A stretch of 64,000 nucleotides of DNA from Diphasiastrum complanatum (Eukaryota > Streptophyta > Lycopodiopsida > Lycopodiales > Lycopodiaceae): assembly GCA_029204225.1 (NCBI GenBank), contig CM055093.1:46546338-46610337 (forward strand), in the 5' to 3' direction. The notes under the pieces are model-generated. The model saw only the letters and a list, made by a program, of their open reading frames with translations. It made no database searches and was not told where the DNA came from. The position numbers and the translations under genes were made by a program. Positions 2,780-42,702 of the stretch are shown piece after piece (position 1 is the stretch's first letter; every line of letters begins with the position of its first letter).

Positions 2780-2875
2780 CTAGCCTGCTGCGCTAACTTG
2801 GGCTGCTCCATTTGCTGATATACCAAGAACCTCCCTTTCATGTTCCAACTGGTGGTGAGATCCTGTTGAATCATT
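2780..2875 (-). CDS. ZML: ZML exon 7: C-terminus and stop
   Basis: This exon has 96 nt: 31 codons and TAG at 2782-2780. The acceptor TGTTTCAG|AATGATTC is good and the phase (0) fits exon 6. The encoded tail ([18 protein letters not shown], then [13 protein letters not shown]) is not recognisable by itself, because ZML C-termini vary. It is accepted on phase, position 251 nt after exon 6, and the open frame ending in a stop. Another terminal exon to the left of the window cannot be fully excluded. Confidence 0.72.
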   Translation of the reverse strand, partial: NDSTGSHHQLEHEREVLGISANGAAQVSAAG

Positions 2876-3217
2876 CTGAAACATCCACCATCTTCAGAAA
2901 TAGAAGTTGACTATGAAAGCCATTACAACAAACTTCCAAAACAATGGGCCAGAATAGAACGTGTAAACCAAGAGCTAGCTTGATGGCCATTCTAAAACGA
3001 CATAAAAAGTTGAGCTCGTAAGCAAATTTATTGTGTAAGGCAAGTGAAGCAAAATAAATCACAGCAGATCTTCAAAAGATATTTATAGAAGATATGTCAT
3101 AGGCTACATAGAGAGAAAAAACTTACATGGGGAATGGCATGAGATTGTTGCAAAGTTATGAATGGAGCTTTGGAAAGATCCCTAAGAACTCCCTGTGATC
3201 AAATGATGACTGAAATT

Positions 3218-3280
<63 letters not shown>

Positions 3281-6200
3281 ATGAGGTTTGTTCATATAAT
3301 AACCACACCTCTTAAACCATTGAAACTAGTGCTAACTTGTGGATGACTCAACAAAGGGACTTTAATGTCGAGGTAATATGATACACATGCAAGCCTATAT
3401 GCCTATGAGAACTTGATGAATGTCATGCAAAAAGTTGGAGTTTCAACTCGGATGGAGATGGGAGGAGGCCAAGTGGGGGAAAGAGGAAGGCTGGGCGGAG
3501 GAGAGAGGAGGGCCAGCATTAGAGGAGATTTCAATTCCAAAAGGGCTTTATACGAATTCGAGCCATAGTAATAGAATGTTAGAGAAAGACGTTTAATTTG
3601 TGTGGTTGGCTCATTTTTTGAAGTATATTAATAACGCACATGAAACAAAGCACGTGCCACAAGCAAAAGAATATGCCCTCCAAAATTTCATGTGTAAAGG
3701 AGTACACAACTCCTAAAGCCCATGCTCAATATTTGTGATCAAAGTTTTACATAAATAGAACCTCTAGTCTTTTAGATTTCGTCACACTAATTTGCATTGC
3801 ACTTTCTCGATTACTTGTGAGTCTTCTTGAGAATGACATTCAAGAGCTTTGTGAGGAAATTTTAACAACGTGGGCTCTCTTTGCAACTTCTTATTGATGT
3901 TATATGTCTTGTTCTTGTAGGTGCTGATAGCTTCTTGTAAAGTTCAAGTTTGTTGTTATTCTATTTCCCCTTTAATTACTAGATGATATTGTTGTAGATT
4001 ACAATGTAGTTGATGTTTGTAGCTTCTCGGCTACAATGTTCCCTCTAAAATTAAAAGTAATAATGTTACCTTTTTACTTTGTCAGATTGTTATATGAGAT
4101 TTGAGCAATAGAGAGTACTCTAAATTTTCAAACAAAAGCAAGCTCACATATTTTATTTTATCTTGGTACTGATACCTATAGACAATTGTTGATGTGGCAT
4201 ATTGCTATCACGAGAGGAATTGTATTTTTGGCAAGAGAACTTGCCAATTCTTGTGTGATTCCAATATGTAAGGATATTTGATGTGTCAAATTTCCATCAC
4301 ACAAGCATCTACATTTTGGTAAGAAAACTTGCATTTTGGTAAAAAAGAATAGTATTATGAAATAAAAATGCAAGCTCTAGATTTTCATAGAATCATGCAA
4401 AGATATGAACATTCCATCATATTCTATGCAAAGAGAAGATCAATTTTGCTCTCCATCAGAGTTCAAATAAGAAAGTTATGATAAATCAAAGATTTATACC
4501 ATACTAGCACAAGATAAACATGTGATGACGTGGCATATCTCCACCACGTGAGGATCTACATCCTGGTAAAGAGAACTTGTCTATTCTCGCGTTATGGCGA
4601 TGTACGACATCCTCAAAATCTTTGATTTACCATAATTTTCTTATTTGAACTCAGATCGAGATGAGGTAAAAAGCAATAATGATCTACTCTTGGCATAGAA
4701 TCCGATGGAATGATCATATCTTACATGTGATTCTATAAAAATATCGATAATTTTTAGGAAAGTTCTACTCATCCTTAGATTAATGGTTAATGTTGTTGTA
4801 GATGATGTTTTGCAGCTTCTTGCCGGCTGGCTCATGTATATAGATGAACGGCTATTGTTGTTGAAGATTGGTCTACTTGTATAATATATCTCTGCAAAAC
4901 TTGTTATGTTTCACAGTTCACTTCGTTACAAATGATTAGATATCATATTGATCACCTTTTTGTGTAAAAGTTAGGGCTTGGAAGTCGAGGCTAAACCTTG
5001 TAGAGGTTCAAGTCCTCTTCCCTTAAACTGTAGAAATCAAAATTGGAAGCTGGATTTGCATTTTGCTTTTATGCTTCTTTCATATTTGAAAATGCAAATT
5101 CAAAAAATGCAGTTTCACTACATTTGGCGTAACCATATGGAATCCAAACTGCTCCAGAATTGAACCAAATAAAAGATAAATAATAGCTTTTCAAATTTGC
5201 AATGATAGATCCTACCAAAGATAATATAAAACAAAGTTTAATTTAGTTTAAAAAGTGCTGAGAAATCTGCAATGAAAAATCACCAATCAAAGACGGTTGA
5301 ACTAAATAAAACTAGAAAACTTCAATCCAAAGATGGTCTCAAAACTTAAGAGAGACCAAAAACTGCCTAAAAACTTTGAAAAAAAAATTTTGGACAATGG
5401 CCCAAGAACAGTAAAAAATGGCTGAATATGGCATTTGCCACCATATGTGGGGTCAAAATTGTTATGTTTGCATTGTTTAGCCTAGTAACTCCTTGAAAAG
5501 GTTTAAACAACGTATTCAATGGAATACGACATCTTCTAGTGACTAATCCAAATCTTTGCTCCTCACACGCGCACACACCCAACAATGGAGACCCAATTTC
5601 CAAAAGAAGAGAATGAAGGCACTTGTCCCGTAACTGGCTACTTGGACTAGCCGGGTAGCCACACGTAGGAAAAATCAGATGTACGGTGTTATTTATAGCA
5701 TTTGTTATATTCAAGGGCATGTCTCAAGTTTGTCAGTCAAATTTGGCCATACTAGGCCTAACTGTAGTTTGAGGAAGGATGACTTCATTGGCATGTACAG
5801 CCCTTGTAGGGATAAGATGATGTAGGGTTAAAAAGAGTTTAGAGAGAGAGGGAGGTATAAGACACTCTTTGTTAACGAAGTCATTAATCTCTAATGTCCA
5901 CCAAAGGGAGACATCCTTTTTCCAAGTGCCCCAATGGAGTGATCAGTTCCATGATCCATCCATGTAAGCAAATCTTTGTTCCTTAGTGTAAACATCTTCA
6001 ACAATTTAGTTAAACCATGTGCTGCTTTGTCATAAAGTGTCTTGAGACTTGAGTAGTGGAGATGTCCAAACATCTCATGCCAAAGATGACTTTGCTCAGC
6101 TTTTTGTAGCATGAACACTTGATGATCCGTCCGACACAACTTGCAACTCGCACACTTGCCATCACTTCAAATTCCTTCTTCCACCAGTTTGAGATTGTTC

Positions 6201-7262
6201 TTGATGTCTTTCACTAGAAACTTATCTTTGAGAACTCAACCCACAATTCTTGATCAGTTATGGATCCCGCCAATAACAAGTTTCTTTGACGTTTTGGGAT
6301 GCGGATGCATTATATGACTCCCTTTTATTTCTTCATCAAGCTCAATTAAGATATCACCACATCCCTCAATATCTTGTGTGCAATCATCGCAAATCTGTTT
6401 CTGGTATGAGGAGAACCACCCTCTATGTGAAATCATATGAGAAGATGCACCCCAAATCTGCATACTACTCAATCTCACTTGAATTAGTTTCGTTTGTTAT
6501 GAATAGGAACAAGCTTTTCTTCATCTTGGCTCAACAAAATTCGTAAATTGGCTGTGGGATCAGTTGGAAAATCTACTACAAATTCCTCTCCCTCTTCCTC
6601 CATGCTTTGTGCATATTGTATAGCACAGCAATTTTACAACAGTAAAAACAGCCTCCTCTCTTTGATTTGCATTTAAGACATGCTAGAATCTACACTCAAA
6701 TTCAACATGCCCAGATTTTCCAGAATAAAAATGATTTCCCCCTCTTTTGTTATTTATTGAATGTGCTTCTTTCTTGTCAATTAGTGGAGACCTGTGAATA
6801 TAATCCTTCCTCTACCTCTGCCTCTTGGAAATGAAATTATAGAGAATGCACAACTCATCAATTTGACACTAGAACCATGTCCACCTTGCAGTAGAATTCT
6901 GGAAACTTCATTAAAGGAGGGTGGTTCAGATTTGTTAGAAATAAATGACTATGCTGAAGTTAATCCATAGGTTACTTTGACTCAAAAGGTCGAGATTTGT
7001 GTAACCATGGGTATTTAGTTATTTAGGCCATCTTAAGTTCAGTTGGACCCAGTTTTGGTCATGTACTGATTCGTGGGTCCTTAGGGGTCTAATTTGGTTT
7101 AGGGGCCCTATCTTGACTTTTGGGGGTGCCCTACATTTACTAAGTGGTTAACCTTAGGGTTTGGTGGCATCTGGCGACATCCAGGTAGAGTACTTAGATG
7201 CTCATTGTGTATTCCATTTTGGACAGTTTGGCTAAGCATTGCTCTCCATTGCTCTTGTTGTT

Positions 7263-7338
<76 letters not shown>

Positions 7339-10300
7339 AGTTGGGCGCCCAGCCTCTTCTCTCTTGTTTCTTGTGGAGATTGATTGATAACTAGATCTTG
7401 GTGACTTGACTCTTGCTTTCCTACATGGTATCAGAGCTACCGGATCTGCAGCAAGCTTGTTTGTTGGCGCTCTACCAGAAGAGGAGCTTCTCTGCTTTTT
7501 GTTGTGAAATTTCAGCATCCTGCTGATCTTTCCAAGTGGAGTTTGGATCAGCTTCTGTCTCTCTTTACAGGTTGGAGGAGGGCGCCCATCAGAGATCTTG
7601 GAGGAGCAATTTGTGGCACCCAAAAATCAGAATCTCAAATCTGATTTTTAAGCAACCAGTTTTCAACAAGTTTTGTTTGGAGGAGGGCGCCCAGAAATCT
7701 GCTACTGATTTTTGGTTGTGGTGTCTCCTTATCTTGCTGTTTTTGTTTTCAGGTTTGCATTTGTGTAGGAGGGTGCCCAAAATTCAGCCAACCCTATTCA
7801 GGGTTAGGTCAACTTGTGGCTGGAAATTTGCAGATTCTCAGCAAGCAGTAGGGCACTTTCAATAGCCCTATTGGAGTGTGTGTTGATCACGCTATTTGGC
7901 TTCTTAATTGGGTTTCGGTGTAGGCTTCAATCAAAGCTAACCTAATTTTCAAGAAGCTGGTTTTTTTGTGCAGAAAGATAGCCATCTATCCATTATCTTT
8001 TGGGCACTTTGGTTGCAGATTGAAAGACATCTCGTGCTCCTACTTTCAGCTCTTTGTTTGCTGCAAAGTTTGTGAGTAGATGTGGTTGTGGAAAGGCTCT
8101 CTTTCCTATCTACTACAAGCTGAAATTCTGTTGGAGGTAATGGCTAAAGAATCGGAAGCTATCGGTTCTTTGTTTAGTGAAGATCGGTTGGATGGCACAA
8201 CTACTCCTTGGGGAGTTACATGATGAAGAATCTTCTCATAGCGAAAGGGCTGTAAGATTTCGTCAATGGTGATGAGGAAAGGCCTTTGTCTTTGGCACCT
8301 CCTACACCTCGTGGATCATCATCAACATCATCTTCTCCATTTCGGAAGAACAAAAGAACTGGGATAGAAGGGATGCACAAGCACATTCTATGGTTGCTCT
8401 TGTTGTGAAAAGAACTATTTTACCTCATATTAGGTCTTGTAAGACATCTAAAAGTGCGTGGGATACACTTTATACTATGTATAGAGTCAAAAATCCAGCA
8501 AGAGTGGTGTATCTCAGAATCAACTTTCTTTGTTGAAGATGCAAGAAGGGGATCAAGTGACCAATCACTTGACGAAGATCAAGGATCTTCGTGAGGAGCT
8601 TCTCAATATTGATGAGATAATTGAGGATGCTCAATTTGTTTCCATTACTCTCAACTCATTACCTTCATCTTATCTTCCATTCGTTTCATCTTTGAATATC
8701 TCTCTTAGGGGACAGCAACTCTCCTTTGATGAACTTGTTGGGCTGCTTCTTCAAGAGGAGCAAACGAGGCAAAATTTTGCGGGTGACACTCAACAAGATC
8801 AAGCTTTCTTCACGAAAGGCAAGGGCAAAGGCAAGTCAAAAGGAAAGGGAAAGTCTCCCTCCAAGGATGAGCAAAAGTCTGTTGGAGGTCAAAATGTCAA
8901 CACTCAAAAGAAGAAAGGGAAGTGCCATTATTGCAAGAAGTATGGGCACTTCATCAAGGATTGTAAGAAGAAGCTTGCAAAAGAGGAGAGTAAAGGAATT
9001 GATACTAGTGCTTCACTTGTTACTTTGGGGCAAGAGCTTGAAGCTAGTGGTGATCTCTTCAACCAAGACTATGCTTTTGTGTCTAATATTGCTTCTACTA
9101 GTACTTCTACATCTATGAGGAATTCAGGTTCTGTTTTGCAAGTTGCTGATTTTCAGCCCATTGAGTGGGTGATTGATAGTGGTGCTACTCGTCCATATGA
9201 CTTCTCGCAAAGAAGCATTCACTAAATTAGTGAAAGTGCAAAATGGAAGTAAGGTACAATGTGCGGATGATGCATCTTATTCTATTCATGGAATTGGAAT
9301 TGTAGCCATCATTCTGCCTAATGGTGAAGAAAAGTACATTAAAACAGAGAAGATAAGTGTCTTGTCAAGGATCCTAAAAGATCACTCTTGATTATTGTTT
9401 CGGGAACAATGCATGTTGGCTTACTCATTATGGATACCTATGAGTGTCGAATTTCCTCTACATGTCTTGTTGCTTCTACATCACAATCATTGGAGTTGGC
9501 TAAATTGTGGCACGCAAGGTTTGGACATCTCAACTTTGCAAGTTTAAAGAAGCTGAAGACATTTAATATGGTAGAAGACATTCCTACTATTGAGCAGCCG
9601 GAAGGGCATGTATGCGAGGGGTGCATACTTGGAAAGTTTCAAAAGAAACCTTTTCCAATTGATGGAACTATAAGGGTTCTTGATAAATTTGATTTGGTCC
9701 ATAGTGATGTTTGTGGTCCAATGAGGACCGAATCCATTGGAAAGTGCATCTATTTTGTGACTTTTATTGATGACTTTTCCCGTTTTACATGGGTCTATCC
9801 TATGAAGGCTAAATCGGAAGTTTTTCAACATTTCAAAGATTTTCTAGCAATGGTGGAAAATCGTTTTGGGCATTCTTTGAAGACCCTACGCACCGATCGA
9901 GGAGGGGAATACATTCAGAACACGTTCGGTGCATTTCTTTGAGAGAAGGGAATTCTACATCAAATGACAACTCCCTATACGCCTCAACAAAATGGTGTTG
10001 CCAAGCGAAAGAATCGCACACTTATGGAGATCGCCTGTTGCTTGCTCAAAGCAAAGGGGCTGCCTCACAAGTTTTGGGCTGAAGCGGTTATAACGGCAAC
10101 ATACATAAGCAATCATTGTCCTACTAAAGCATTGAAAGTATTAACTCCTTATGAAGTTTGGTATGGGAAGAAGCCTTCAATCTCTCACTTTTGCATTTTT
10201 GGTTGTACGGCTTATGCTTTTGTTCCGGATAAACTTCGTACAAAGCTTGAGGATAAAGGAGTTAAATGCATTTTTGTTGGCTATAGTAGTGAAAGCAAAG

Positions 10301-12326
10301 GCTATAGGCTGTTCAATTTGAGCACTAAAGAGATTACTATTAGTCATGATGTGCATTTTGATGAAAAGAATTCATTGGATGTGGCCCCAACTCATATCTT
10401 GAAGTGAATGTTTAAGTTTTTCCAGATTTGGTACCATCTATTGCTGGAGATAAGGGGCAGCAATCAACCAGTTTCGACTGCCCAACACCTCATCAAGTTT
10501 AAAGCCTAATGTTCATCAAGAACCACCCATTGTTGCTCATAATCAGCCTGCAGGAACTGTTGGACAGCAAGGACCAGTTTTGGAAGATCTTGGACAGCCA
10601 ATTGCGGTGTCGGGGGATCTTGGACAGCAATTTGTAAGAGACATGGCTGTTGGACAGCCCAAAACAGTCCCACGATGGCTGTTATCGACTTTGCGGGACA
10701 GCAAAGTAAGTTCATTTTATGATGGAAAGACACGTGCCTCTACAAAATCAGTGGACTATGCTGATTTTTCATATTTTGCTCTTACATCTCATGGAGATAT
10801 TGTGGAAGAACCTGATTTTTATGAGCAGGCCAAGGGAGTAAAATGTTGGGAAGATGCGATGCAAGATGTGTATGACTCACTTATGAAGAACCAGATTTGG
10901 GTTCTTGTTGATCTTCCTCATGGGAAGAAGGCAATTGGTTCTAAATGGGTATACAAAATCAAGTATAAGGCAGATGGTACCATTGAAAGGTACAAGGCAA
11001 GGCTCGTTGCCAAAGGGGATTGATTATGAGGAGATTTTTTCTCCTACTGCTCGGATGACTACCGTGAGGATAGTAACCTCTTTGGCTGCACATTTTGGTG
11101 GGCGTTTGCGGCAACTTGACATAAAGACAGCATTCCTCAATGGTGATCTCAATGAGGAAGTGTACCTTCAACAACCTGCTGGTTTTTTGGTTGAAGGCCA
11201 AGAAGATAAAGTTTGTCTTCTCAAGAAGGCACTTTATGGACTGAAGCAAGCCCCGAGGATGTGGTATCAAAAGATACATGCCTACTTTTGTGATCGTGGG
11301 TTTACTAATAGTCCTAGCGAATCTACTCTTTATGTCAAGCATACTTCAAATTATATCATTATTACGGGAAGTAATGAGCAGCAGATTGATGCCGTAATAC
11401 TTGATCTTGGTATGGTTTTTGAAACCTCAGATTTAGGCCTATTGCACTTTTATCTTGGTCTTGAATTTGTACAAGAAGGGGTTGGAATTTTCATCTCTCA
11501 AGAACGTTACATTGGGCAGATTTTGAAGCGGTTCAAGATGGAAGATTGCAAGCCGGTTGCTACACCTATGGAGACAGGCCTGAAATTAAGTAGTCAAGGT
11601 GATGAAGCTCTCATTTACCTATGTAATTCAAGACCGGACATTTCTTATAGTGTCTCACTCATGAGTCAATTCATGCATGCCCCGATGACATCACAAAGCA
11701 TTGAAGAGGATCTTTCGATATCTTCAAGGAACAAGAAGTCATGGACTTGCTTGTGATGATGCATGTTTGGTTGGTTTTAGTGACTCGGATTGGGGTGGAG
11801 ATCAAGACACTAGACGCTCTACAAGTGGACATTGCTTTTTCCATGGAAATTCTGCAATTTCGTGGTCAAGTAAAAAGCAGCCCACTGTTGCTACTTCTTC
11901 TAGTGAGGCAGAATATAGAGCGATATTTTCAGCCACAACGGAGTGTTTATGGCTGAGAAGACTACTTGTTGACATAAAGTTTGGCGAGCCCTCAGCCACT
12001 CTTATCTTGAGTGATAGTCAAAGTGCTATTGCCATTGCACGGAATCCTGTTTTTCATGCGAGAACGAAGCACATTGAGATCCATTATCACTTTGTTCGGG
12101 AGAGACTTCATGATGGCGACATTTTATTTGAGTATTGTCCTACAGAGGATAATATTGCGGACCTTTTCAATAAGGCATTGCCTAGAGTCAGATCTGAAGC
12201 TTTATGCAAAGCTTTAAATTTCATACCACCTGTTGGTTTAATTACATAGTGAAGATTTCAGTTTTTGCATTGTCATTTAAGAAGGGTGTTAGAAATAAAT
12301 GACTATGCTGAAGTTAATCCATAGGT

Positions 12327-12388
<62 letters not shown>

Positions 12389-17562: not shown

Positions 17563-17618
<56 letters not shown>

Positions 17619-32600: not shown

Positions 32601-35600
32601 TCATACACCATCACTTGCGGATCAGGATCGTGCTCCTCCTGCACTTGTTGATTCCTCTACATCAGATGCTGCTCTAGTTGTTGATGCACCAGGGCTTGCT
32701 GTTGTTTGATCCAGTTTCTTTTTGGCAGTTGGGCCTTTTTTTTTGTGCCGGGGAGAGTTATGGACTCGGCTCATTACCGTCGTCGCGTCCATTTACATTT
32801 ACTTTACTTTATGCATAAGCAGGCCTTGGGCCCTTTTTTATTCATTAATGACACTTAGACTTATGGTTGTCCTTTGGCCTTATTATTTATTATTAGGCCA
32901 TTTGGACATGTTACTGGAGAGTGGGGGCCTTCTTGGAGGACACACTATTATCCCTCCCAGTTGGGCCCTAGCCACCAGAAGCTTCCTTTTAGGGCTTCCT
33001 CTTGGCTATAAGTAGGGAAACTGTGTCATTTGTTATTCAGCCGATGATATTGATCTCTCTCTTTAGTCTCCTTAATCTCTCTCTTTCCTGCTTTCTAGGG
33101 TTAAGTCTTGCTTATGTGATGCTTTCATAGCTTAAGTCTTGCTTATGCTTTCATAGCTTAGCTCTAGATCAGTTGTGGCTCTATTCTTAACTCTAGTCAA
33201 CTCTCCTACTTTTTAGGAGGTTAGTCTAGCCACTCCTAATAGATGACCCAGTACCACCCCATGCCAAAGCTAAGCACGACTCTCTGAGGTCCAATGTCAA
33301 CTAATTACAGTTTATTTACAATTTTCTTACAAAGGTCACCATAGGCCCCGATGACTTAGCCATTTCAGTAATTACAATAATTACAAAATGTACATCTATC
33401 TAGAGAAACTGTACAAATTGGGACAGGGAGTAAAGGCTCTAACATATCTCCCTCTGATCTCATAGCATATCGGGGTCACTCTAGATACTCGGATTGGCGT
33501 AGGCGATACATGTACGATTTAGGCTCCTATAATTACTTGTCACACAATATAGGGATTCCTCCATCTTGATTCCTATCATAAGGCATCTTTGTATTTTTAG
33601 AGTTGCCTTGCATTCGTACTTATGATGACTTTCTTACCCTCCAAGTCATACAACCTCTATCCCTTCTCTTGACTATCATATCCAAGAAATAAACACTTGG
33701 TCGCCTTAGAATCCAATTTGCTCTTGGAATTCTTAGGTGTGTGAGCATAAGCAATCCTACCAAACACTCTCAAATGACTTACATCTGGTTAATAACCCGT
33801 GTGATTCAAAAGATAAATTGCCGTCTTAACTGCTTCACCCCAAAACATATTTGGGAGATTTTTACTCTTGAGCATACTCCTTTCAGTTTCCACTATAGAC
33901 CGGTTCTGTCTTTCCGCAACTCCATTTTGTTGAGGGGTGTCCTTGTTTGCAAATTGTCTCTTTATACCAGTAACCATGATCCTTTCAAAACACTTGAAAT
34001 TTCATAGAAATATATTCTTCCCCTTTGTCCAAGTGGAGTATCTTGATTTGTCTATCTGTTTCTTTCTCCACTCGTGTCTTAAACCATGTGAAATACTTGA
34101 ATGCTTCACCCTTATTCTTGAGAAGATAGATCCACGTCTTCCTAGAATAGTCATCCACAAACACCATGAAGTAACTTGCTCCCCCACAAAATTGAGTTCT
34201 CATAGGATGACACAAATCTGTATGAACAAGTTCTAGAACATTTTTCACCATGTACTAGACGAAATTTCTTCATATGATGCTTGCCTAAGACATAGCCTTC
34301 ACACCTTGTGATCAGAAACAACTTGAGGTAAACCTATAACCATGTTGTATTTCCTCAAGACTTGTAGACTTTTGTGATTCAGATGTCCAAACCTTTCGTG
34401 CCATAACTTACTCACTGATCCAATATCTGCAACACTTGCATGATGATCCACCACCTGAGCCTGAAGTTTGTAAAACCGCCCTCAACTACTATTTCATTAT
34501 CTTTCTTCTTGATGAGACACCGCTCTTCATCAAACTGCACCGCCATGTGTTGCTTTGCAATAGCTGATACTGAGAGTAGTTTTTCTTAATTCCTGGAACA
34601 TAAAACACATTCTTTATGTCTCCACTCTTCCCCAAAGGTAGTTGAACTTGTACTTTTCCAACTCCCTTTATATCATATGTGTAGTTGTCTCCCAACTTCA
34701 CATTTGACCCATCATCTAATTTTTGAAAATTAGAGAGCCACTCCCGCCTAGGTGTCATATGCTTCGAAGCTCTTGAATCAATAAACCAATAGTCTTTCTA
34801 CATCATTTCTCTGAAGCACTATGACATTATTTTTGGTGCAGCCTGGTTCTCTTCACTTGGTATTGTTGTTGTGGATATCTCTCAGCAGACACTTTCCTTT
34901 ACTCATGCTGGTCAACATCATTCACTTGCTGGTATTGATTCCCAGGGTGACTATCAGTTGGTTACCGGGAAGCCGTTTATGTGTAGCCTGCCAAAGGCTT
35001 AGGATGCAGCTCTTCTTTCCATTCAGAGTACATCAGTTGCTGCTTCACTTTCACCATTCGTGGGTCCTCTTCCTTAGGTTGATGCTCCTTTGGATTTACA
35101 GGTTGTTGCTGTGTGGCTTGTGCCTATATTCACAGATATTGTATTCAGTGGTCATTCCTGGTTTCATTGATATTTAGGCCGTATACCTTGGTGGTATTTC
35201 TACTATTGCTTTTGCGCATACCTCAGATAGCCCTCCTGGTTCGGTGGTTGGTGCAGTATCTTCTCCATTGGTCTCTATATCTCCATCTCTTGAGTCCGTT
35301 ATGGCCGATGTTCCTGCTGATTTCTATGGGGTTCTTCACGGGTCCACGTTTGATGGTTCCCTCGCTATTGGTGATCATTCATGCGCCTTTGGCCCTTACC
35401 GTTACACATTTTCCATCTGAGGATATTTGCCAGATGGTCACTATTACTTATCTAGGGTATTTATATGCTGGGATCTTTCTAGATGAGTATACGGGCATCC
35501 TTCAGTCTCCTTGTGTTTCTACATATAGGTTTGTTGCATTCCATGCCGATGCTGTGGATATATGGCATTCCTGGTTATACGTATAGCTTGGTTTCCATTT

Positions 35601-38600
35601 GGACCTGTTGATTGGTGCTGGTTTTTCCATATTACTGATCGCCTATGGTGCGGATATCTCTATGATTATGCATGTGGCTCTCTATCTGTTCCTTGGATTG
35701 TTGCTCATTGTCAGGCTTGGCATATCCTGATGGCTTGGGTTATTGCCTCCTTTCCAGCTACTGTCTGTCCAGGTGATCTTCAGATTCCCCGTCATTTCAG
35801 GTTGCTCCATATCGCTTGGTCTCTGATGCTGAGTTGCCACTTTGTTCTGGTTTTCCGAGACCATCAGAGTACCTTGAGAGAGTTCCTTCTCCTCTCTTGG
35901 ATAGTTTGTGGGGATGTTGTCGCCATATACTTCAGTATTGCTCATATGTGCTTTGATACTAATTCCCAGCTACACGTGGATATTGATCCGCTGCTTGCTA
36001 CTGATGTTGGGGATCCTGTTCCGCGTTCCAGTGCATTTCTTCTATTCCTCACTTGTGCGCCTGGTGTGTACTTTGGGATTACACTTGCGGCCAGTTCCGA
36101 TGGGTCATCTGATTCTCCATCCGTTTCCGGTGTATCCTATGATGGATTGGTATGTCCATATCAGGTTTTTCTGGATGAGTTTTTCAGTTGAGGCCTTTAC
36201 TACTTCTAGATTTGTTGCTATTGTTTTTATGCATCATGTCTTTTTAGATGATGCATTGATTTCTTGGACCTTTTGGAGCTTTTGGCATGCTGCTTTTCTC
36301 GTGATACGGGCCTTGAAGGTACCGTGTGCCAGTGCTACTTCTCATTCATGGGCCTTATGGATACCTTGGGCTGATTGAGAAAGGAAGCATAGTATCATTA
36401 TGGAACAAGGAGAGTCCAGTATGCATGGAACTAGGAGATCGGCTAGGCTTGCAAAGCAACATGAAGATTAGGACAGGAGGAATCACATGAAGATCAAGAT
36501 CGACAGGAAGATCATCACGAAGATGGGGATGTACATTTTGCATATATGGCCACAGTATTGGAAACCAAGGATCCATCTACTTTCAGAGAGGCTGAAAAAG
36601 AGGATATTTGGAGGAAAGCTATGGATGAGAAATACGACTCAATCATGAAGAACAAGACTTGGAGACTTGTATGGTTACCTACAGGGCAAAAGGCCATTGG
36701 ATGCAAGTGGGTCTACAGATCTAAGTACAAATCAAATGGTTCTATAGATAAACATAAGGCAAGATTGGCAGCAAAAGGCTATGCTCAACAGGAAGGGACT
36801 GACATGAAGAAACTTTTGCACCAGTTGCTAAGTCTAATACTATGAGGACGGTGTTATCATTTGGCAGCGCAGTTTGGATGGGATATTCAACAAATGGATG
36901 TGGAGAGTGCATTCTTGAATGGATTTCTAGAGGAGGAAGTCTACATGGAGCAGCCAGAGGGACACATAGGAGCAGGACATGAAGACAAGGTTTGCAAGTT
37001 GGACAAGGCACTAAATGGACTTAAGCAGGCACCCAGGGCATGATACACAAGGATTGACACATACTTTGAGGAGCTTGGCTTTCAGAGGAGTAGTTCGGAG
37101 CATACACTTTATGTTTTGATCAGGGATGGTCATATTGTGATTGTAGTGATGTATGTGGATGACCTTGTTATTACAGGATCAGATCATGGTGTGATTCAGG
37201 GTATCAAGAAAGATCTCTCATCGGAGTTTGACATGAAAGATCTTGGTTCACTACAATATTTTCTTGGGATTGAGGTATGGAGTAGCACAGGTGCTATTTA
37301 TTTCTCAATCTAAGTATGCTCATGAACTTCTTGAAAAGTTCAAATGTCAGAGTGCAAATCTATTTCTACACCATATGATAGTGGTGTAAGCTTACTAAAG
37401 CTGAGGAGGATTAGAATTAGATGAGACTTTATATAGAAAGCTTGCTAGAAGCTTAATCTATCTAACTACTACAAGACCATATATTGCTTATACTGTGAGT
37501 ATGGTTAGTCAATTTATGGCTAAGCCTAAGCAGATTCATTGGAGAGCTGCTAAGCGGATACTCATATATATCCAGGGTACATTGAGGTCTAATATTCTCT
37601 ATGGGAGACAGGATGATTTGAAGTTATGGGGTGGATGCTGATTGGGCTGGAGATGCGGAAGATCGAAGATCTACTACAAGTTACGTTTTTAGGCTTGGTT
37701 CAGGTGCTATCGCTTGGAGTTCAAAGAAGCATCATATTATTGCATTATCATCCACAGAGGTAGAATATCGAGCTCCTACGAGTGCGGCAAGTGAAACAAT
37801 GTGGTTACGAAGGATTTTACATGATCTACATATGGATTCACCTACAGTACTTCAGTGTGACAATCAGAGTTGTATTAAACTGGCGAAAAATCCAGTTTTT
37901 CACAACAGGACAAAGCACATTGAAATACAAAAATACTTCATCAGAGAGAAGATTCAAAGTGGTGAAGTGGAGCTCCATTATTTTGAAATACACCCGACAT
38001 GTCCTTCAGTCTTATGTGCCCCTTGGGACCTAAAAAGAACTTTCTAACTTTCTTTCTCTACCGAATAACAATGACTGACACATACAATTATAACCAAAAA
38101 CCATTCCTTCATTAACTCCTAGCTCACTGTAACATGGGTTTCATGTTTGAGCAAGTTCCACAGGTAAATATGTTTTAAATTGGTACAACGATTTAAATTG
38201 GGGCAAAATGTTTTAGGCACAGAAATGCTAGGGATGTCCTTGTCTCCTAAGCCACATATCTCTGATTTCCCAATCAATTGAGAACAATAAGCAGGTTTTC
38301 TTTGGAAAATACGCTTCTAAAGAATTTTGACAAAATTTAAAAATCTATACAAAACATCATTCTATAGGTGCTCATATCATACTCTACAGAACTATGGAAC
38401 ACTATTATTAATTGGTTACTTTTTCAGGTTAGAAAATAACTTTGAAAGGGATGTTCTGTTGGAAATGTGAGAATCTTTTCCCAAATTCACTATAGAGCTC
38501 ATCCCGTATGCCATACGGAACAAGCTCATTCCTTACGGCTAAGAACTACAATACGGACCTACAAAGTCCAACTCCCACATGTTAATAGGTTATGGGCAAG

Positions 38601-41600
38601 TATAAATTGTGAGGCTAGGGTACATTCTCAAGTTTGCAGTTTCTTAAGTCTATATCAAGTATACTAGAATAAGTTCCTTCAAGTGTGTCAGATGTGTTTG
38701 TATAAGCTCAGAACCAGAAAATAGTTTTTGTCTACAATTCCATCTCAATTTTGCAACCACTTGTAGAACGTAATTTGGAAACAAAAGACCAGTTAGCAAT
38801 GTTCTCAAATCAACAGATGGTTTCCAGCTAACCACACACATACCAGGTGCACTTTTTTTTTAAAACAATCATCAATTAAACGAGGCAAACTCACGAATGG
38901 GCAGAGAAATGAGGCAAACTCAACCCAAGCACACAACACTACTACACTTAACCTTTGTTTTGCTAGGAAGAACATGATATTAGTATGAAACCAATGCAAA
39001 AGCCTCAGAGACTAAACATTGATGATTGAGATTTTCAAAGTGAAGACAACGAATTACACTTACATAACTTCCTGTAGAGAGCCCACTGATCCTGCTTGCT
39101 GTCCCTGTGCTTGAGAACTCTCACCATTTAAGTTCATCACTCCTTCCTCTGCAGCTTTTGAAGAGGCAAATTGACCCTTGTTGCGATGCATCCTAAAATT
39201 TAAATAGCATGAAAAACATGCACAAACTCACACAAGAATGCCTACTCAAGTATGATGAAAGAATAAGCAAATATGACTTTTACTCTAATTCAAAATCCAA
39301 GCACAGCTCTGTAAGCCCAAGGCTAGCTCTAAACAGACCAGCCGTTGCATGAAGGTCATTCTTCCTCATTCAACCATCAAAATATTCCTAAAAGTTATAG
39401 GAATTTCTCTCATACTTGGCCAAAATTTGATAGCCAGTAAATTCAATATCAGCACACTCCATATGAGCCAATAAATACACATCCAAAATATGTAACGAAA
39501 GGATTGCAGACAGACTCTTGAATTCATGACACCATAGGTGGAACAAATGTGGATTACAAAGGTGCAATGTTTGTAACTTATTTCTTGAAAAAACCAACTA
39601 AGCAAGCAATCTTGTCAATCATTATATGAAGTTATTGACAGAATTTATCCATTCCCATGGTTCTGTAATGTTTAGCTATCTCAATTATCACATGAGAGTC
39701 AGTTTTTGTGACTTAATCCTTGCACAAACCAAGCAAGAAGTCTTATCATTTGTTACGTAAAGTAATTAAAACAAGAAGTCCATTGTGGCATGATAAGTTA
39801 CATTTGCTAGTAATTGTTGCAAGCATCAATTGAGAAAAACATTGACGACACTTGGATTATAAGACAGCTATAATTGCTATTTCAGTAGAAGCTAGAGGGT
39901 AGCTCTATCTGTTTGCTGAATACTTCTGCTATTTAAAAGTTTCAGGTTTCTAGGCAGCAATTTGTAGACCCAAATACTTAATCTAGTTCTGTGAATGGCA
40001 TACTGCTGTTATACATTTTTCCAAGCAAGCTAGCGCCTGATCCTTCTGAGATACAATGTTAAATCCTAACCTACTGAAGTCCATTCAGCTACAAGAATCT
40101 AAGACTAGTCATCCATGCTACAAGGGCTGCCTTAACCTGTAGAGTTGAAGTCAGGATTTCTGCAAAAGAAAAATGTTTGGAATCAACCTGGCAGGTATAG
40201 TCATTGGTCGATGTAGGATGCCTGTGAATCTCCGTCAAAGATGTTGGAGTTTTGAAGACTGAAACTGGTTTTTAAAAAGATGAAATATGCAACACTGTAC
40301 AAATGTAGGATCCAACTTATGCTAAATCAGACATTATAGATGACGAACGTTTATGGGACCAGCATACTACGTTAGCTGTATGAACAATTGAAATGTGCTT
40401 GAAGTCAATTTCTATTTACAAAGTTGTGCACAGAGATTTTACCTCTGAGCAACTTCTTTTCGAACAGTATACCGAATTTTCTTATCAAAGCAACGCTCCT
40501 TTCGCTTCTCACGAAACCTTGTCAATGAAGCAAGTCTCTGTGGCATATTCATTCGCACCGGAAGATCTGACAGGATCTGCTCATTTTAACACAACTTTTC
40601 TACTTATCTCATGGATGATTATTTCGTCCCATTATCTCTGAATCTTTTCTAGAAGATACAATACCATGAGAAGAGGTGTGATATGAACTCAAAGGACATG
40701 CTAGAGCTCTAATGAATACAAGCAATGTAACAGCAAGAATGAAAAGTTCAAAAACCACCACATTGCCTACACCAAACTATGCTAAATAGAAATGTCAGCA
40801 TCCAAAACACCATCTAAAGAAACAAATAAGTTTAACTCCTCTATGTTGTACCTTATGATGATGATGACCAGGTATACCCATTCCAGTTATTCCTTGAGGG
40901 ATTTCGCGTCCTCCTAACAGGAGCAGTACTGCTTGCACCTTGATTCAGCAAGCACACAACGTTTGTAAAATGGACAACAACCTGGAATACGTTCTCAAAG
41001 ACATCTAACCTGTAACACAATCCCAAAAACATAACTTTTCCAGAGGATAGTCATTGCTTGCACATTAATCCAGCAAAAACGAGAGATTCATATGAAGATA
41101 TATGAAAAAAGAATACCCTGTAGATAATGAGTGCCTTTCCATATTGGAGAAAACTGATAACAGGTGAAACTAAGAAACCATTGTCACTTACAGTTACTCC
41201 CACCCTTCATCCAAAACATACAAAACCACAACATAAGCACGCTCGTCCTCTCTCTATCCCCCAAGAAAAGAGCAAAACATTTGTACGGTCCAGATAATGA
41301 GTTAACTATCTACAACATGTCAAACTTCACTTACACAGCCGAAGGCTAAAGCACATACACCTCTACATGAATCGTTCTCAGTAAGTGCTCCCCATAAGGA
41401 AGCTTCTGAGAACAAATAGCATCTCGATCCAAAAGTTTTAAAATGTCAAATGCCAGCAATCCACCAAACATGATTCACAACATAAGCAGCTCAGAAATTA
41501 TCTTAAGATAATTGGGTTGTGCTTTAATTCACACCAAATATGCTCTAAAACCCATAAACCAGACCCAGAACAAAAGCTGAAGGATTATATACACCCCACC

Positions 41601-42240
41601 AGCAATAGTTGACAATAAATAATTCTATCTGAACAAAAACAAACAGCTGAAGCAAAAGCTTGCATATCAAACTGAACTAGATCAATCATACCCTTGCATA
41701 TAAAAAGATCAACAAGGCAATGGCTGGTGCAGAAAAATTGGTTACCTTCTCTGGTGGTACAGTATCGAAGACATATACCTCCCCTTGATAGGAGAGTGTC
41801 AGCTGTGTCATCCCATGTGATCGCCCAGTAAGAGCTGTCGGTTGGTCTCCCGGATGGCCTCCATCAGAGTGCATCTCACCCTCATCCAATCCTCCATCAT
41901 CATCACCTTGATCGTCCTGATGATCCTCAAGGTCTATTGCACTCTGTTCAGTATAATGTAATCTGCCATGAATGTGAGTAGGATGCATTTGAAGATGGCT
42001 GTGGATCTGAGCATGCAAATGCTCAGCTTCAATGTGCCCATGTGCCTGGACTTCATCTGCTTGTCCAGTCTCAGCCCCAACTTGGACCTGGGCATGCATG
42101 TCGTTCACATGGGACGGACGCCCATGGATTGGAACAGTTGGCATCATTCCATGCACATGAGATACAACATGAGAATGGAAGCCATGACGTGTGTGATGGC
42201 CATTGAGTCCTTCAGAATGGTTATTATCCCCTTCTGACAT
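2780..42240 (-). CDS. ZML: GATA-type transcription factor with TIFY and CCT domains (ZIM/ZML class), 7 coding exons
   Basis: This is a spliced nuclear gene for a DNA-binding transcription factor of the TIFY-CCT-GATA class (Arabidopsis ZIM/ZML1/ZML2, i.e. GATA24/25/28). Coding exons on the minus strand are 42240-41746, 40938-40852, 40576-40443, 39192-39064, 16057-15952, 3192-3127 and 2875-2780. All junctions have GT-AG borders with compatible phases (0,0,2,2,0,0), and the sum is 1113 nt, giving 370 residues and TAG. Residues 1-140 are His- and acid-rich. The TIFY motif ([11 protein letters not shown], then [14 protein letters not shown]) falls at about 150-185, the CCT domain ([20 protein letters not shown]) at about 205-245, and the GATA finger C-x2-C-x20-C-x2-C at about 283-310, followed by VLRDLSKAP. 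The start is the ATG at 42240; an upstream ATG is closed at once by TGA. Introns 4 and 5 measure 23.0 and 12.8 kb and are packed with transposons. No lesion was found in the exons, so the gene is probably functional. The exons are read directly; the family is established knowledge; splicing itself is inferred. Confidence 0.93.
2876..3126 (-). other. ZML intron 6
   Basis: This is a 251-bp intron with GTAAGT donor and TTTCAG acceptor, without recognisable features. It is one of only two short introns in the gene. Confidence 0.85.
3127..3192 (-). CDS. ZML: ZML exon 6: post-finger basic motif
   Basis: This exon has 66 nt (22 codons), phase 0 at both ends. The acceptor is GATCACAG|GG and the donor is CAT|GTAAGT. 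It encodes [20 protein letters not shown]. In family members the finger is followed directly by NKGTLRDLSK; here exon 5 ends in NK and exon 6 begins GVLRDLSK, so the match spans the 12.8-kb intron. A (GA)28 tract on the coding strand ends about 30 nt upstream of the acceptor. Confidence 0.9.
3222..3277. repeat. (CT)28 microsatellite in ZML intron 5
   Basis: This is an uninterrupted CT tract on the plus strand, so GA on the coding strand. It ends about 30 nt upstream of the exon 6 acceptor, in the zone where branch point and polypyrimidine tract are expected. Confidence 0.97.
3278..5884. other. ZML intron 5, left part, no recognisable gene
   Basis: No coding similarity was recognised on either strand. 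A related pair of about 70-bp stretches occurs near 4190-4330 and 4500-4620: both contain 'gatgtggcat/gacgtggcat', 'tttggcaagagaacttg/ggtaaagagaacttg' and a following cis-like order. This suggests an old diverged repeat. Confidence 0.5.
5885..6932 (-). mobile_element. Degraded Ty1/copia fragment J, left piece (gag end, protease, gag-pre-integrase)
   Basis: Read on the minus strand, the piece gives the end of gag ([15 protein letters not shown] near 6920), a zinc-knuckle remnant with one Cys changed to Ser ([10 protein letters not shown] near 6700), a protease remnant ([16 protein letters not shown] near 6420) and the pre-integrase HHCC region ([19 protein letters not shown] near 6090). Several stops and frameshifts make it a pseudogene. 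Copia A (6933-12472) is inserted inside its gag, and the other piece continues at 12478. Confidence 0.8.
6933..7425 (+). repeat. 5' LTR of copia A (493 bp)
   Basis: The LTR starts TGTTAGAAAT and ends TTTCCTACA, bounded by the agatt duplication and the primer site. It contains a (CT)36 tract at 7265-7336. It is about 300 bp longer than the 3' LTR. Confidence 0.95.
7426..7437 (+). other. Primer binding site of copia A
   Basis: TGGTATCAGAGC follows the LTR without spacing. It is complementary to the 3' end of initiator-Met tRNA, the usual primer of plant copia elements. Confidence 0.93.
7438..8139 (+). other. Untranslated leader of copia A
   Basis: This is about 700 bp between the primer site and gag. 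The motif 'ggaggagggcgcccag/atc' recurs at about 7570, 7680 and 7770, and the same GGGCGCCCA word occurs in the LTR at about 7345. No coding function is seen. Confidence 0.6.
8140..12249 (+). pseudogene. gag-pol polyprotein of copia A, disrupted
   Basis: Gag starts at the ATG at 8140 ([20 protein letters not shown]) and meets tandem stops near 8220. A long gag stretch (8530-9160) carries the zinc knuckle [14 protein letters not shown]. The protease motif VIDSGAT is near 9171. Integrase follows with [44 protein letters not shown] and [13 protein letters not shown] (9500-10400). RT is present with [12 protein letters not shown] and [17 protein letters not shown] (10840-11580), but where the catalytic YVDD should lie the frame reads straight from [12 protein letters not shown] (about 11347): the box is deleted. 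RNase H runs 11760-12200 ([35 protein letters not shown]). It cannot be autonomous. Confidence 0.93.
12287..12472 (+). repeat. 3' LTR of copia A (186 bp, internally deleted)
   Basis: It has the same first 42 bases and the same last 90 or so as the 5' LTR, with only a few substitutions, but the intervening stretch of about 300 bp is gone. The deletion joins 'ggttact' directly to the CT tract (12329-12384), so it probably used CT microhomology. Confidence 0.93.
12478..12870 (-). mobile_element. Degraded copia fragment J, right piece (gag)
   Basis: Removing copia A and one agatt copy joins this piece to 6932 on the minus strand. The minus-strand reading includes gag-like [20 protein letters not shown] near 12700. 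The right edge is uncertain. Confidence 0.5.
12871..15951. other. ZML intron 5, right part, no recognisable gene
   Basis: No protein similarity was recognised. Around 12990-13050 there is a palindrome-rich patch built from GGAACG/CGTTCC, and similar words recur at 15655-15680 and 17440-17470. A short open stretch at 14471-14575 (minus, [20 protein letters not shown]) looks exon-like but has no family match and is not needed by the ZML frame. Confidence 0.5.
15340..15600. repeat. Imperfect tandem repeats around an 'agctggaaacccgatag' core
   Basis: At least five diverged copies of 'agctgg(g/a)aaacccgata(g/a)' followed by '(t)tgaaaatg/catgaaac' occur at about 15355, 15396, 15445, 15522 and 15562. 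Spacing is about 30-75 bp. Confidence 0.65.
15952..16057 (-). CDS. ZML: ZML exon 5: GATA zinc finger
   Basis: This exon has 106 nt. The acceptor is AAATGCAG|A; the first base completes Ile, then 35 codons begin [18 protein letters not shown] and end with [12 protein letters not shown]. The four Cys form C-x2-C-x20-C-x2-C, the long-loop plant GATA finger typical of the ZML subfamily. It lies 23 kb downstream of exon 4. The phase match and the family-specific sequence [16 protein letters not shown] tie it to the same gene. The donor AAG|GTTCTG is weaker than the others. Confidence 0.93.
16058..17564. other. ZML intron 4, stretch nearest exon 5
   Basis: No recognisable gene or element was seen. 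The short ORFs here have no coding signature that I recognise. Confidence 0.6.
17565..17615. repeat. (GA)25 microsatellite
   Basis: This is an uninterrupted GA tract on the plus strand. It abuts the 3' end of the minus-strand LINE remnant, where it reads as CT. Confidence 0.96.
17616..18276 (-). mobile_element. LINE (non-LTR retrotransposon) remnant, 3' part
   Basis: On the minus strand the sequence gives the C-terminal region of a plant LINE-like ORF2: [20 protein letters not shown] followed by FRDTPTSL and an acidic Asp run, then a tail reading [14 protein letters not shown]. Several stops are present. The gypsy element B inserted at 18276/18277 splits it from its upstream part at 29726. 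Assignment rests on the 'cysteine-his RCPxYYEIR' type C-terminal motif and the upstream part. Confidence 0.6.
18277..18692 (-). repeat. 3' LTR of gypsy B
   Basis: This is a 416-bp LTR; in plus orientation it runs from AGTTACGAATAG to GTCCATAACT. It is bounded by aagga on the outside and by the purine tract on the inside (18693-18702). Confidence 0.95.
20813..21210 (+). repeat. 5' LTR of copia C (398 bp)
   Basis: It starts TGTTGAAGAGTAATG and ends CATAATTCTTCA. No difference to the 3' LTR was found in a base-by-base reading. Confidence 0.96.
21211..21222 (+). other. Primer binding site of copia C
   Basis: TGGTATCAGAGC is adjacent to the LTR and complementary to initiator-Met tRNA. Confidence 0.94.
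21680..25693 (+). pseudogene. gag-pol of copia C, two frame changes and three stops
   Basis: Gag starts [20 protein letters not shown], and the zinc knuckle [14 protein letters not shown] is near 22438. Near 22545 the frame changes, so the protease ([17 protein letters not shown], 22617) is in frame 1. Near 22800, after VLHVPG, a small deletion returns it to frame 2 for integrase ([55 protein letters not shown]). In-frame stops lie at 24041 (TAA), 24359 (TAG in KGYA*QEG, where CAG/CAA is usual) and 25142 (TGA in RIL*YVRG). RT has [11 protein letters not shown] near 24726. RNase H ends at 25693. Confidence 0.94.
25688..26085 (+). repeat. 3' LTR of copia C (398 bp)
   Basis: Same length and sequence as the 5' LTR; bounded by the G-rich purine tract on the left and by caaga on the right. 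The end of the RNase H frame overlaps it by a few bases. Confidence 0.96.
29291..29302 (-). other. Primer binding site of gypsy B
   Basis: On the minus strand it reads TGGTATCAGAGC directly after the 5' LTR. The 640 bp between it and the gag start at 28648 is an untranslated leader. Confidence 0.94.
29303..29720 (-). repeat. 5' LTR of gypsy B
   Basis: This is a 418-bp LTR between the primer site and the aagga duplication. Relative to the other LTR it has about seven substitutions and a 2-bp insertion (acagtttccc versus acagtccc). Confidence 0.95.
29726..30260 (-). mobile_element. LINE remnant, upstream part, split from 17616-18276 by gypsy B
   Basis: The minus strand gives decayed LINE ORF2 text: [20 protein letters not shown], then [18 protein letters not shown] and [15 protein letters not shown]. 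These fit the conserved 'TRLGKG..ALVQLE ... LFDTLVTPTLLYGVEVW' stretch of plant LINE-like reverse transcriptases. There are several stops and shifts. Continuity with the left piece follows from removing gypsy B and one aagga copy. Confidence 0.6.
30262..30330 (+). mobile_element. Tail piece of a second LINE copy, opposite strand
   Basis: The plus strand reads [16 protein letters not shown], matching the minus-strand LINE tail [13 protein letters not shown] at 17616-17660. The two copies therefore lie in opposite orientation, and the strand switches at about 30260. Confidence 0.55.
30390..30414. repeat. Poly-C tract followed by CGCGCGC
   Basis: About 25 consecutive C are followed by alternating CG to 30421. 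The minus strand is a G-run able to form quadruplexes. Length is unreliable in any assembly. Confidence 0.9.
30555..30900. repeat. Degenerate TCGAC-rich short repeats
   Basis: The stretch is built from words such as tcgacttcgactt, ccatcgact and gtcgacttacccgac(a/t)tcatcgaca; the last occurs twice, about 56 bp apart. It has no coding sense that I recognise. Confidence 0.7.
30950..31680 (+). mobile_element. Copia 5' remnant F (LTR end, primer site, start of gag)
   Basis: TGGTATCAGAGCC at 31396-31408 follows an LTR-like end (TTTTTCGACA). A TATA-like ctataaaagag lies at 31070-31080. Downstream, ATGGATCC at about 31533 opens a gag-like frame ([11 protein letters not shown] near 31558), broken by stops. 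The LTR start is not defined and no 3' LTR was found. Confidence 0.6.
31665..31790 (-). mobile_element. Short LINE fragment
   Basis: This fragment aligns with 30050-30160: both contain 'catcccgaatgg', 'ttccggaa(g/t)caaaac' or a close form, 'ggcatgtccctt' type words and 'caagtcgagtggtagct'. It is a second diverged copy of the TRLGKGHAS region. Confidence 0.6.
32040..33192 (+). mobile_element. 3' end of a gypsy element E related to B (chromodomain tail and LTR)
   Basis: From about 32480 the plus strand matches the C-terminus of gypsy B pol: RQIQFLVQ, then [20 protein letters not shown] and VDAPGLAVV with a stop at about 32707. A purine tract (cggggag) and an LTR follow. Upstream, 32040-32470 is a T-rich stretch repeating words like 'ggataccttgg' and 'ggcattc'. 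It has no clear domain, but its last 100 bases still align with gypsy B upstream of the chromodomain. Confidence 0.8.
32756..33192 (+). repeat. 3' LTR of gypsy E (437 bp)
   Basis: It begins AGTTATGGACTCGG and ends TTCTTAACT, the same terminal words as gypsy B LTRs. It differs by an internal tandem duplication of about 30 bp (two copies of 'cttaagtcttgcttatg', about 33105 and 33134). No matching target duplication was found next to it. Confidence 0.88.
33193..33594. other. Spacer without recognisable feature
   Basis: No domain or repeat was recognised in this stretch. Confidence 0.5.
33595..34800 (-). mobile_element. Degraded copia fragment D (protease to integrase)
   Basis: Read on the minus strand from 34800: protease remnant [18 protein letters not shown] (the DSG triad has become DSR), KNVFYVPG, pre-integrase [15 protein letters not shown], and integrase [46 protein letters not shown] and [15 protein letters not shown] near 33740. 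The frame changes at several points. No LTRs are attached. Confidence 0.85.
34815..35040 (+). mobile_element. Gypsy E/B-family protease-region fragment
   Basis: The plus-strand reading [18 protein letters not shown] followed by SLPKA and a stop matches gypsy B ([23 protein letters not shown]). The element continues into 35040-36384 without recognisable RT. Confidence 0.75.
35040..36384 (+). other. T-rich stretch resembling 32040-32470, possibly gypsy-derived
   Basis: No RT or integrase motif was found. The sequence repeats words such as 'ggcattcctgg', 'ggatat' and 'ccttatggataccttggg'. Its character and the word ggataccttgg are shared with 32040-32470, which precedes the chromodomain piece. 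Short open frames here look non-coding. Confidence 0.4.
36385..37992 (+). mobile_element. Degraded copia fragment K (RT and RNase H)
   Basis: The piece begins in the linker before RT ([15 protein letters not shown]). RT has [47 protein letters not shown] with a TGA for the Trp codon, and an intact [13 protein letters not shown] box (37146). RNase H has [25 protein letters not shown] and [11 protein letters not shown], and is cut off at about 37992, where unrelated sequence begins. At least five stops or shifts are present. Confidence 0.9.
37993..39063. other. ZML intron 4, stretch nearest exon 4
   Basis: No gene was recognised. A TGTTGGAAATGTGAGAATC start at about 38457, followed by stretches like those of copia LTRs, could be a solo LTR, but no right border or target duplication could be set. 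Confidence 0.4.
39064..39192 (-). CDS. ZML: ZML exon 4: CCT tail and Gln/Ser-rich linker
   Basis: This exon has 129 nt. The acceptor TTTTAG|G completes the Arg codon left by exon 3, and then [12 protein letters not shown] closes the CCT domain. A linker ending SVGSLQEV follows. The donor is AT|GTAAGT in phase 2 and exon 5 supplies the third base (ATA, Ile). The donor overlaps an in-frame TAA, so any transcript that reads into intron 4 stops one residue later. Confidence 0.9.
39193..40442 (-). other. ZML intron 3
   Basis: This is 1250 bp with GTAAAA donor and TTTTAG acceptor; no recognisable insert. Confidence 0.8.
40443..40576 (-). CDS. ZML: ZML exon 3: CCT domain
   Basis: This exon has 134 nt and begins in phase 0 at the ATC after acceptor GAGCAG; a site 3 nt upstream would add one Gln. 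It encodes [18 protein letters not shown] and then the basic CCT core [25 protein letters not shown]. It ends in phase 2 at CAGAG|GTAAAA. The CCT domain (CONSTANS, CO-like, TOC1) is characteristic of ZML proteins between the TIFY motif and the GATA finger. Confidence 0.93.
40577..40851 (-). other. ZML intron 2
   Basis: This is 275 bp with GTACAA donor and GAGCAG acceptor; nothing else seen. Confidence 0.8.
40852..40938 (-). CDS. ZML: ZML exon 2: end of the TIFY domain
   Basis: This exon has 87 nt (29 codons), phase 0 at both ends. It encodes [16 protein letters not shown] and then [14 protein letters not shown]. The acceptor is ATCAAG|GTG and the donor is AAG|GTACAA. The LLLLGGRE stretch is the second half of the TIFY domain of ZML proteins, which in JAZ/TIFY relatives mediates protein-protein contacts. 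Confidence 0.92.
40939..41745 (-). other. ZML intron 1
   Basis: This is 807 bp with GTAACC donor and ATCAAG acceptor; nothing else seen. Retention would add 22 residues after PPEK before a stop. Confidence 0.8.
41746..42240 (-). CDS. ZML: ZML exon 1: His-rich N-terminus and start of the TIFY motif
   Basis: This exon has 495 nt (165 codons) starting at the [11 protein letters not shown] methionine. The first 110 or so residues are unusually rich in His, with clusters such as [13 protein letters not shown] and [17 protein letters not shown]. An acidic stretch ([20 protein letters not shown]) follows, then the TIFY core [11 protein letters not shown]. The exon ends in PPEK with donor AAG|GTAACC, phase 0. 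Splitting the TIFY/ZIM domain just after PEK and resuming with [10 protein letters not shown] fits the known ZML domain sequence. Confidence 0.9.
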
Positions 42241-42380
42241 TCTTCTCACATCCCCCAGCTCCTTTCCCCCTCTATCCCAAAAAGAGATTCAACGGTAAGA
42301 TTGATATCGCAGCTGGTCCAGCTTACAACTATGAACCAAATTCTACACTAGGTCCATAATCAAATCTTGCAGAGAAACAA

Positions 42381-42383
<3 letters not shown>

Positions 42384-42445
<62 letters not shown>
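42384..42445. repeat. (CT)31 microsatellite upstream of the ZML start
   Basis: On the coding strand this is (GA)31, about 145 bp upstream of the ATG, in the 5' UTR or proximal promoter. GA repeats are known binding sites of plant BBR/BPC factors; whether they act here is unknown. Confidence 0.95.
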
Positions 42446-42448
<3 letters not shown>

Positions 42449-42702
42449 GTACAGCTGTTTTGTGCAATTGCTCTAAGAGGGATGAAAAGATACAAGTAAT
42501 GTCCCTAACCTCAATCAAACCATTTAACCATTTTCCACTTCATGAAGTAGTGTCATTCCACTTGGTGCATGAAATATCACAAAGCCGTGGCCAACAAGAC
42601 CTTGCATCAACATTTTACACCTTCTGTATCCCAAAAGAACTCCTTGGGAAGATCTTGCTCCTCAATAAATATTAGTGTCTGCCCAGCAGAAAAAAAAGAT
42701 GT

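Follow-up and report, generated by a model that had tools for sequence, protein, structure and literature searches.

A probably functional ZML-type TIFY-CCT-GATA gene of Diphasiastrum complanatum with seven exons set among introns swollen by LTR retrotransposons

We analyzed a 64-kb stretch of the genome of the clubmoss D. complanatum, family Lycopodiaceae (C2:46546338-46610337; genome size, 1.74 Gb), which we refer to as the window. Its reverse strand contains seven coding exons distributed over 39,461 bp, with exons making up 2.8% of this span (Table 1). The exons total 1,113 nt, equal to 370 codons plus a stop, and the 370 codons are free of stops and frameshifts. All six introns (807, 275, 1,250, 23,006, 12,759, and 251 bp for introns 1 to 6) have GT-AG ends with phases that are consistent across the seven exons, and each exon end string occurred only once when the 64-kb window was searched. 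An earlier note on this DNA had proposed these seven exons and their in-phase joining into a 370-residue product, and the sequence confirms this proposal. Reading back from the ATG, an in-frame stop is reached before any further ATG, so the N terminus of the protein appears to be complete.

Table 1. Exons, major introns, and transposable elements of the ZML gene in the window (window coordinates)
Feature	Position	Strand	Description
Exon 1	41746..42240	-	495 nt; His-rich N terminus and most of TIFY domain, up to ..PPEK; donor GTAACC
Exon 2	40852..40938	-	87 nt; end of TIFY domain
Exon 3	40443..40576	-	134 nt; first part of CCT; acceptor ..GAGCAG, donor GTAAAA
Exon 4	39064..39192	-	129 nt; end of CCT and linker; donor GTAAGT
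Exon 5	15952..16057	-	106 nt, not a multiple of 3; all four cysteines of GATA finger CX2CX20CX2C
Exon 6	3127..3192	-	66 nt; post-finger tail GVLRDLSK
Exon 7	2780..2875	-	96 nt including stop TAG
Intron 4	16058..39063	-	23,006 bp
Intron 5	3193..15951	-	12,759 bp
Cassette exon (putative)	14525..14578	-	Intron 5; 54 nt, in frame, 18 residues, AG/GT ends; in O6H91_02G087400
Gypsy element	18277..29720	-	Intron 4, on the gene's strand; LTRs 18277-18692 and 29303-29720; Pfam domains
Copia element	20813..26085	+	Nested in intron-4 Gypsy, opposite orientation; Pfam domains
Copia remains	7282..12472	+	Intron 5; frames 8485-12249; LTR pieces 7282-7425 and 12329-12472

Four Pfam models matched the predicted protein above their cut-offs: tify (48.4 bits, cut-off of 27; residues 145-174), CCT on its C-terminal side (61.1 bits, cut-off of 28.4; residues 208-250), Jas within the CCT region (34.2 bits; residues 207-230), and GATA (48.0 bits; residues 283-319). 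A separate GATA family match was found at the position of exon 5. The protein has a single GATA finger near its C terminus, CX2CX20CX2C, with a spacing of 20, and residues 1-140 contain 24 histidines. A finger of this form is described as type IVc (PMC8153473), a type that is frequent in GATA subfamily III (PMC8367991). The TIFY and CCT domains, the finger type, and the grouping with land-plant ZML proteins in the tree described below together identify the predicted protein as a member of the ZML group, or GATA subfamily III, in agreement with the earlier reading of a complete ZML-class gene. We rejected an identity as a JAZ protein; the Jas match exceeded its cut-off, but the protein also contains a GATA finger. 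Matches to solved structures involved nine distinct sequences, all of them weak: five chains of GATA factors (plant GATA18, AreA, and GATA-3), three CCT-domain chains, and one chromatin-remodelling protein.

The best protein match of the window product was O6H91_02G087400, a hypothetical protein of D. complanatum with 388 amino acids (E of 1.8e-241, 95% identity, 100% coverage), and the full-length relatives anticipated for a protein search were thus recovered. Because four Pfam models scored above their cut-offs, the best protein match was of this quality, and two paralogues retain the exon plan, the predicted gene is not a product of chance. O6H91_02G087400 contains all 370 residues of the window product in order plus 18 extra residues. 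The earlier note had supposed that automatic annotation would miss the gene, which is incorrect, as this entry covers all of it. The exon set stood in that all seven proposed exons are right, but the deposited model has one further exon (14578-14525). This ZML gene is ordinary and has already been deposited, and the only leads that it offers are splice forms.

Exon-by-exon matches of the window gene were found on C4 and C11 of the same genome. The C4 gene (O6H91_04G085700) has exons of 465, 84, 137, 129, 106, 69, and 15 nt that encode 334 residues, and its translation agreed with the deposited protein when the two were compared by eye. The C11 gene (O6H91_11G018000) has exons of 465, 84, 134, 129, 106, 68, and 80 nt, the last measured up to where the deposited model stops; the finger-bearing frame stops earlier within exon 7. 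Exon order and splice phases are common to all three genes except at the last C11 junction, and exons 4 and 5 are equal in length across the three, with the remaining exons differing somewhat. Intron 4, at 4,951 bp in the C4 gene and 17,727 bp in the C11 gene, is the longest intron in these paralogues too.

Within exon 5, the window gene differs from the C4 gene at 13 codons (9 of the 13 changes synonymous) and from the C11 gene also at 13 (8 synonymous), and the C4 and C11 genes differ from each other at 8 of 35 codons, with 6 of these 8 changes silent. Because most codon changes among the three paralogues are silent, the finger exon looks maintained. A tree was built from 22 chosen proteins, all of them TIFY-CCT-GATA proteins with no outgroup family. 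It placed the window, C4, and C11 proteins of D. complanatum in one clade (support of 100/98) in which the C4 and C11 proteins were paired (100/100). Selaginella was sister to this clade (84/84), and the window protein had the shorter branch among the three paralogues.

Most of the gene's span had been likened in the earlier note to a transposon graveyard. This description fits only in part, given the Gypsy element of intron 4 and the Copia element nested in it. The two LTRs of the Gypsy element align over 18276-18692/29302-29720 with 97.9% identity, and the element is flanked by the 5-bp repeat AAGGA when the LTR start is read one base in; a chromodomain match in this element fell below the Pfam cut-off. 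The nested Copia element has identical 398-bp LTRs with TG..CA ends and the flank repeat CAAGA. This degree of LTR identity in both elements points to recent insertions. We estimated insertion ages with substitution rates for plants other than clubmosses (1.3e-8 to 2.2e-9 per site per year). At these rates, the age of the Gypsy copy would be about 0.65-3.9 million years, and the nested Copia element, for which we took three changes as the upper bound, would be younger than about 0.3-1.7 million years. The Gypsy span with its nested Copia element accounts for 11.4 of the 23.0 kb of intron 4, so that half of this intron would be recent.

Intron 4 of the C11 gene contains two LTRs of the same Gypsy family that are 89-93% like those of the window and lie in the orientation opposite to the C11 gene; no clear flank repeat was found for this LTR pair. 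The simplest reading is that members of this family inserted independently into intron 4 of the window gene and of the C11 gene. Pieces related to the family also occur on the forward strand of the window at 32062-36366, where two of them enclose an LTR-like stretch (about 32750-33140), and these pieces match C11 intron 4 at 90-94%. When one set of open frames from the window was compared with Pfam, 9 of 10 belonged to retroelement families and the frame at 11689-12246 had no match. In a second set, 8 of 10 frames were without a family and both frames in the intron-5 Copia remains matched. The frame at 25145-25690 in the intron-4 Copia element gave no Pfam match.

Several other features of the window were recorded. 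Beyond the gene, further retroelement integrase frames are present at 54425-55150 and 56331-57113, which are probably Copia-like and Gypsy-like, respectively. Long (CT)n/(GA)n tracts occur at 42343-42793, 48826-50300, 3205-3290, 7242-7377, and 12310-12398; two of these five tracts lie a short way upstream of the start codon, and another two fall within the LTRs of the intron-5 Copia remains. A forward-strand open frame of 204 residues at 59291-59905 matched no Pfam family. Searches of the window yielded no Rfam match at the gathering score, no ARAGORN match, and no match to a plasmid collection.

Considering the intact reading frame, the domain content, and the paralogues, we are highly confident that the window contains a functional D. 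complanatum gene for a transcription factor of the ZML class (GATA subfamily III, TIFY group), whose transcript would be spliced across two introns that LTR retrotransposons have enlarged. The size of these introns (23 kb and 12.8 kb) and their recent insertions might instead suggest a decaying copy, in which intron inflation blocks production of a full-length mRNA, leaving the work to the C4 and C11 genes. We rejected this reading as very improbable, given 370 codons without a stop or frameshift, a protein with the shorter branch of the three paralogues, and a C11 paralogue that also has a 17.7-kb intron 4. Assigning exons 1-4 and exons 5-7 to two different genes, a concern raised in the earlier note, is more improbable still, to the point of being negligible, and was likewise rejected. 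The sole observation in its favor is the 23-kb gap, against which stand the same exon order and splice positions in two paralogues with shorter gaps and a deposited protein, O6H91_02G087400, that spans both exon sets. Exons 5-7 thus belong with exons 1-4.

Within the reading of a single functional gene, a further issue is whether the 54-nt cassette forms part of the main mRNA, so that the true product would be the 388-residue form with 18 residues between the GATA finger and the tail. The deposited model splices exon 5 to the cassette and then to exon 6, with no direct join of exons 5 and 6. The cassette is in frame with AG and GT ends and lies outside all LTR pairs found within the window; no repeat match overlapped it among matches longer than 100 bp in the window or in comparisons with two 100-kb paralogue stretches. 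We scored splice sites with a small matrix built from the 18 donors and 18 acceptors of the three paralogous D. complanatum ZML genes. The cassette acceptor, at 5.9, fell inside the range of these same acceptors (3.9-13.6), but the donor, at 1.6, scored below all 18 donors (3.1-10.2) from which the matrix itself was made. Furthermore, 13 in-frame candidate exons in intron 5, the cassette included, were equal to or better than the cassette at both ends, and 36 were at least as good by summed score. The sequence alone therefore does not single out the cassette, and we rejected it as a self-evident exon.

Comparisons with other proteins also argue against the cassette as part of the main product. 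The LMWANK motif is present in 106 of the 120 listed relatives, and among those 106 the cassette insert follows the motif only in O6H91_02G087400; one relative (P0033) has a different insert at this position. A search with the cassette region, which returned three proteins at E 1e-8, likewise found the cassette in no protein other than O6H91_02G087400. The protein database holds one representative per 90% cluster (n = 3 for the cluster of O6H91_02G087400 and n = 7 for that of P0038), and other splice forms may already be deposited within the cluster members not displayed. Variation near the cassette position has precedent in Arabidopsis, since the sixth exon of AtGATA25 is 60 bp long in some forms and 84 bp in others (PMC8153473). 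On balance, we consider it unlikely, although with a real chance, that the main mRNA includes the cassette.

Another lead on splice forms came from the C11 paralogue. In the deposited O6H91_11G018000, exon 4 runs directly into exon 6 and the zinc finger is missing, yet an intact GATA-finger exon lies between the two at C11:9754699-9754804 on the reverse strand, separated from exon 4 by 17.7 kb and from exon 6 by 337 bp. Translation of the C11 gene without exon 5 reproduced the deposited protein exactly (319 amino acids, compared by script), and translation with exon 5 gave an uninterrupted TIFY-CCT-GATA protein of 334 residues. This finger-bearing protein was not a representative among the best 120 of 229 proteins matched at E 1e-60 or better, and when it was used as a query the best match was the finger-less model at 81% coverage. 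The missing C11 finger is either an annotation error over a short exon in a huge intron or a true exon skip. The earlier claim that short exons of this kind are easily missed does not apply to the window gene but fits the C11 entry, where a true skip is also possible.

Among the 120 listed relatives of the window protein, inspection by eye found only one other entry besides O6H91_11G018000 without a precomputed GATA domain: P0040 of Marchantia polymorpha, which is named a jasmonate ZIM domain protein in the database. The tail of P0040 was compared with the exon-6 region of the liverwort Calypogeia in a frame shifted by one base. The compatible run started at the first residue and extended for 20 residues, and the longest run in 200 shuffles was 10. 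The longest runs with Riccia (further down the tail), Physcomitrium, and Selaginella were 17, 10, and 10, with control maxima of 10, 7, and 9, respectively, so that the Selaginella run hardly exceeds its control. Runs in the other frame were 5-6 and not above controls. In the same test, the clubmoss C11 pair, for which the DNA is known, gave a run of 27. Judged from the protein tail, P0040 is consistent with direct splicing of exon 4 to exon 6 and omission of the finger exon.

Since exon 5 alone encodes the finger cysteines and its length is not a multiple of 3, skipping it would produce a TIFY-CCT protein unable to bind DNA through the finger. Loss of a GATA domain by splicing would not be new in kind, as PMC8367991 reports such loss through alternative splicing in Populus, where subfamily III has the highest mean number of splice forms. 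Among the papers covered by the literature searches, none was found on skipping of the ZML finger exon. We regard it as doubtful that finger-exon skipping is a real and ancient ZML switch, with the C11 and Marchantia entries as such isoforms and transposon growth in intron 4 tuning their ratio. If skipping does occur, the finger-less TIFY-CCT form may compete with full-length ZML in the manner of a JAZ-type partner, and a real C11 skip would provide a testable regulatory isoform. Clubmoss GATA/ZML counts based on the deposited O6H91_11G018000 would misclassify that gene.

Our results favor a model where a 39.5-kb pre-mRNA would be spliced across two introns enlarged by LTR retrotransposons. 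The TIFY domain of the resulting protein would make protein contacts, and the exon-5 GATA finger would bind DNA together with the exon-6 tail. By analogy with Arabidopsis GATA24, 25, and 28, for which light- or growth-related regulation is reported in PMC8153473, the protein may regulate light- or growth-related genes. In a possible isoform, the 18-residue cassette between finger and tail would alter DNA binding. No functional test of any clubmoss ZML was found in the literature searched. As a gene, the locus adds little, being of a known family with its D. complanatum protein already deposited. It illustrates how short coding exons can persist amid transposon-filled introns, and its analysis exposed a paralogue entry, O6H91_11G018000, that is without its DNA-binding domain despite an intact exon.

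The nearest known system is O6H91_02G087400, which represents the same gene with all 370 residues and differs in that a cassette of 18 residues separates exons 5 and 6. The C4 and C11 paralogues share the seven-exon plan, TIFY, and CCT, but their intron 5 is 418 and 337 bp, respectively, compared to 12.8 kb in the window gene, and the deposited C11 protein, unlike the window protein, has no GATA finger. A cluster of A. thaliana GATA factors (P0096), which we take to be GATA28, matched the window protein with 53% identity over 66% of the query. The His-rich N terminus of the clubmoss protein is longer than that of P0096, and the clubmoss gene has giant introns relative to the Arabidopsis genes. 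According to PMC8153473, the subfamily III members of Arabidopsis, GATA24/ZML1, GATA28/ZML2, and GATA25/ZIM, combine TIFY, CCT, and a GATA finger as in the clubmoss protein; AtGATA25 has seven exons in two of its three forms and eight in one, and its sixth coding exon is 60 or 84 bp versus 66 bp in the window gene.
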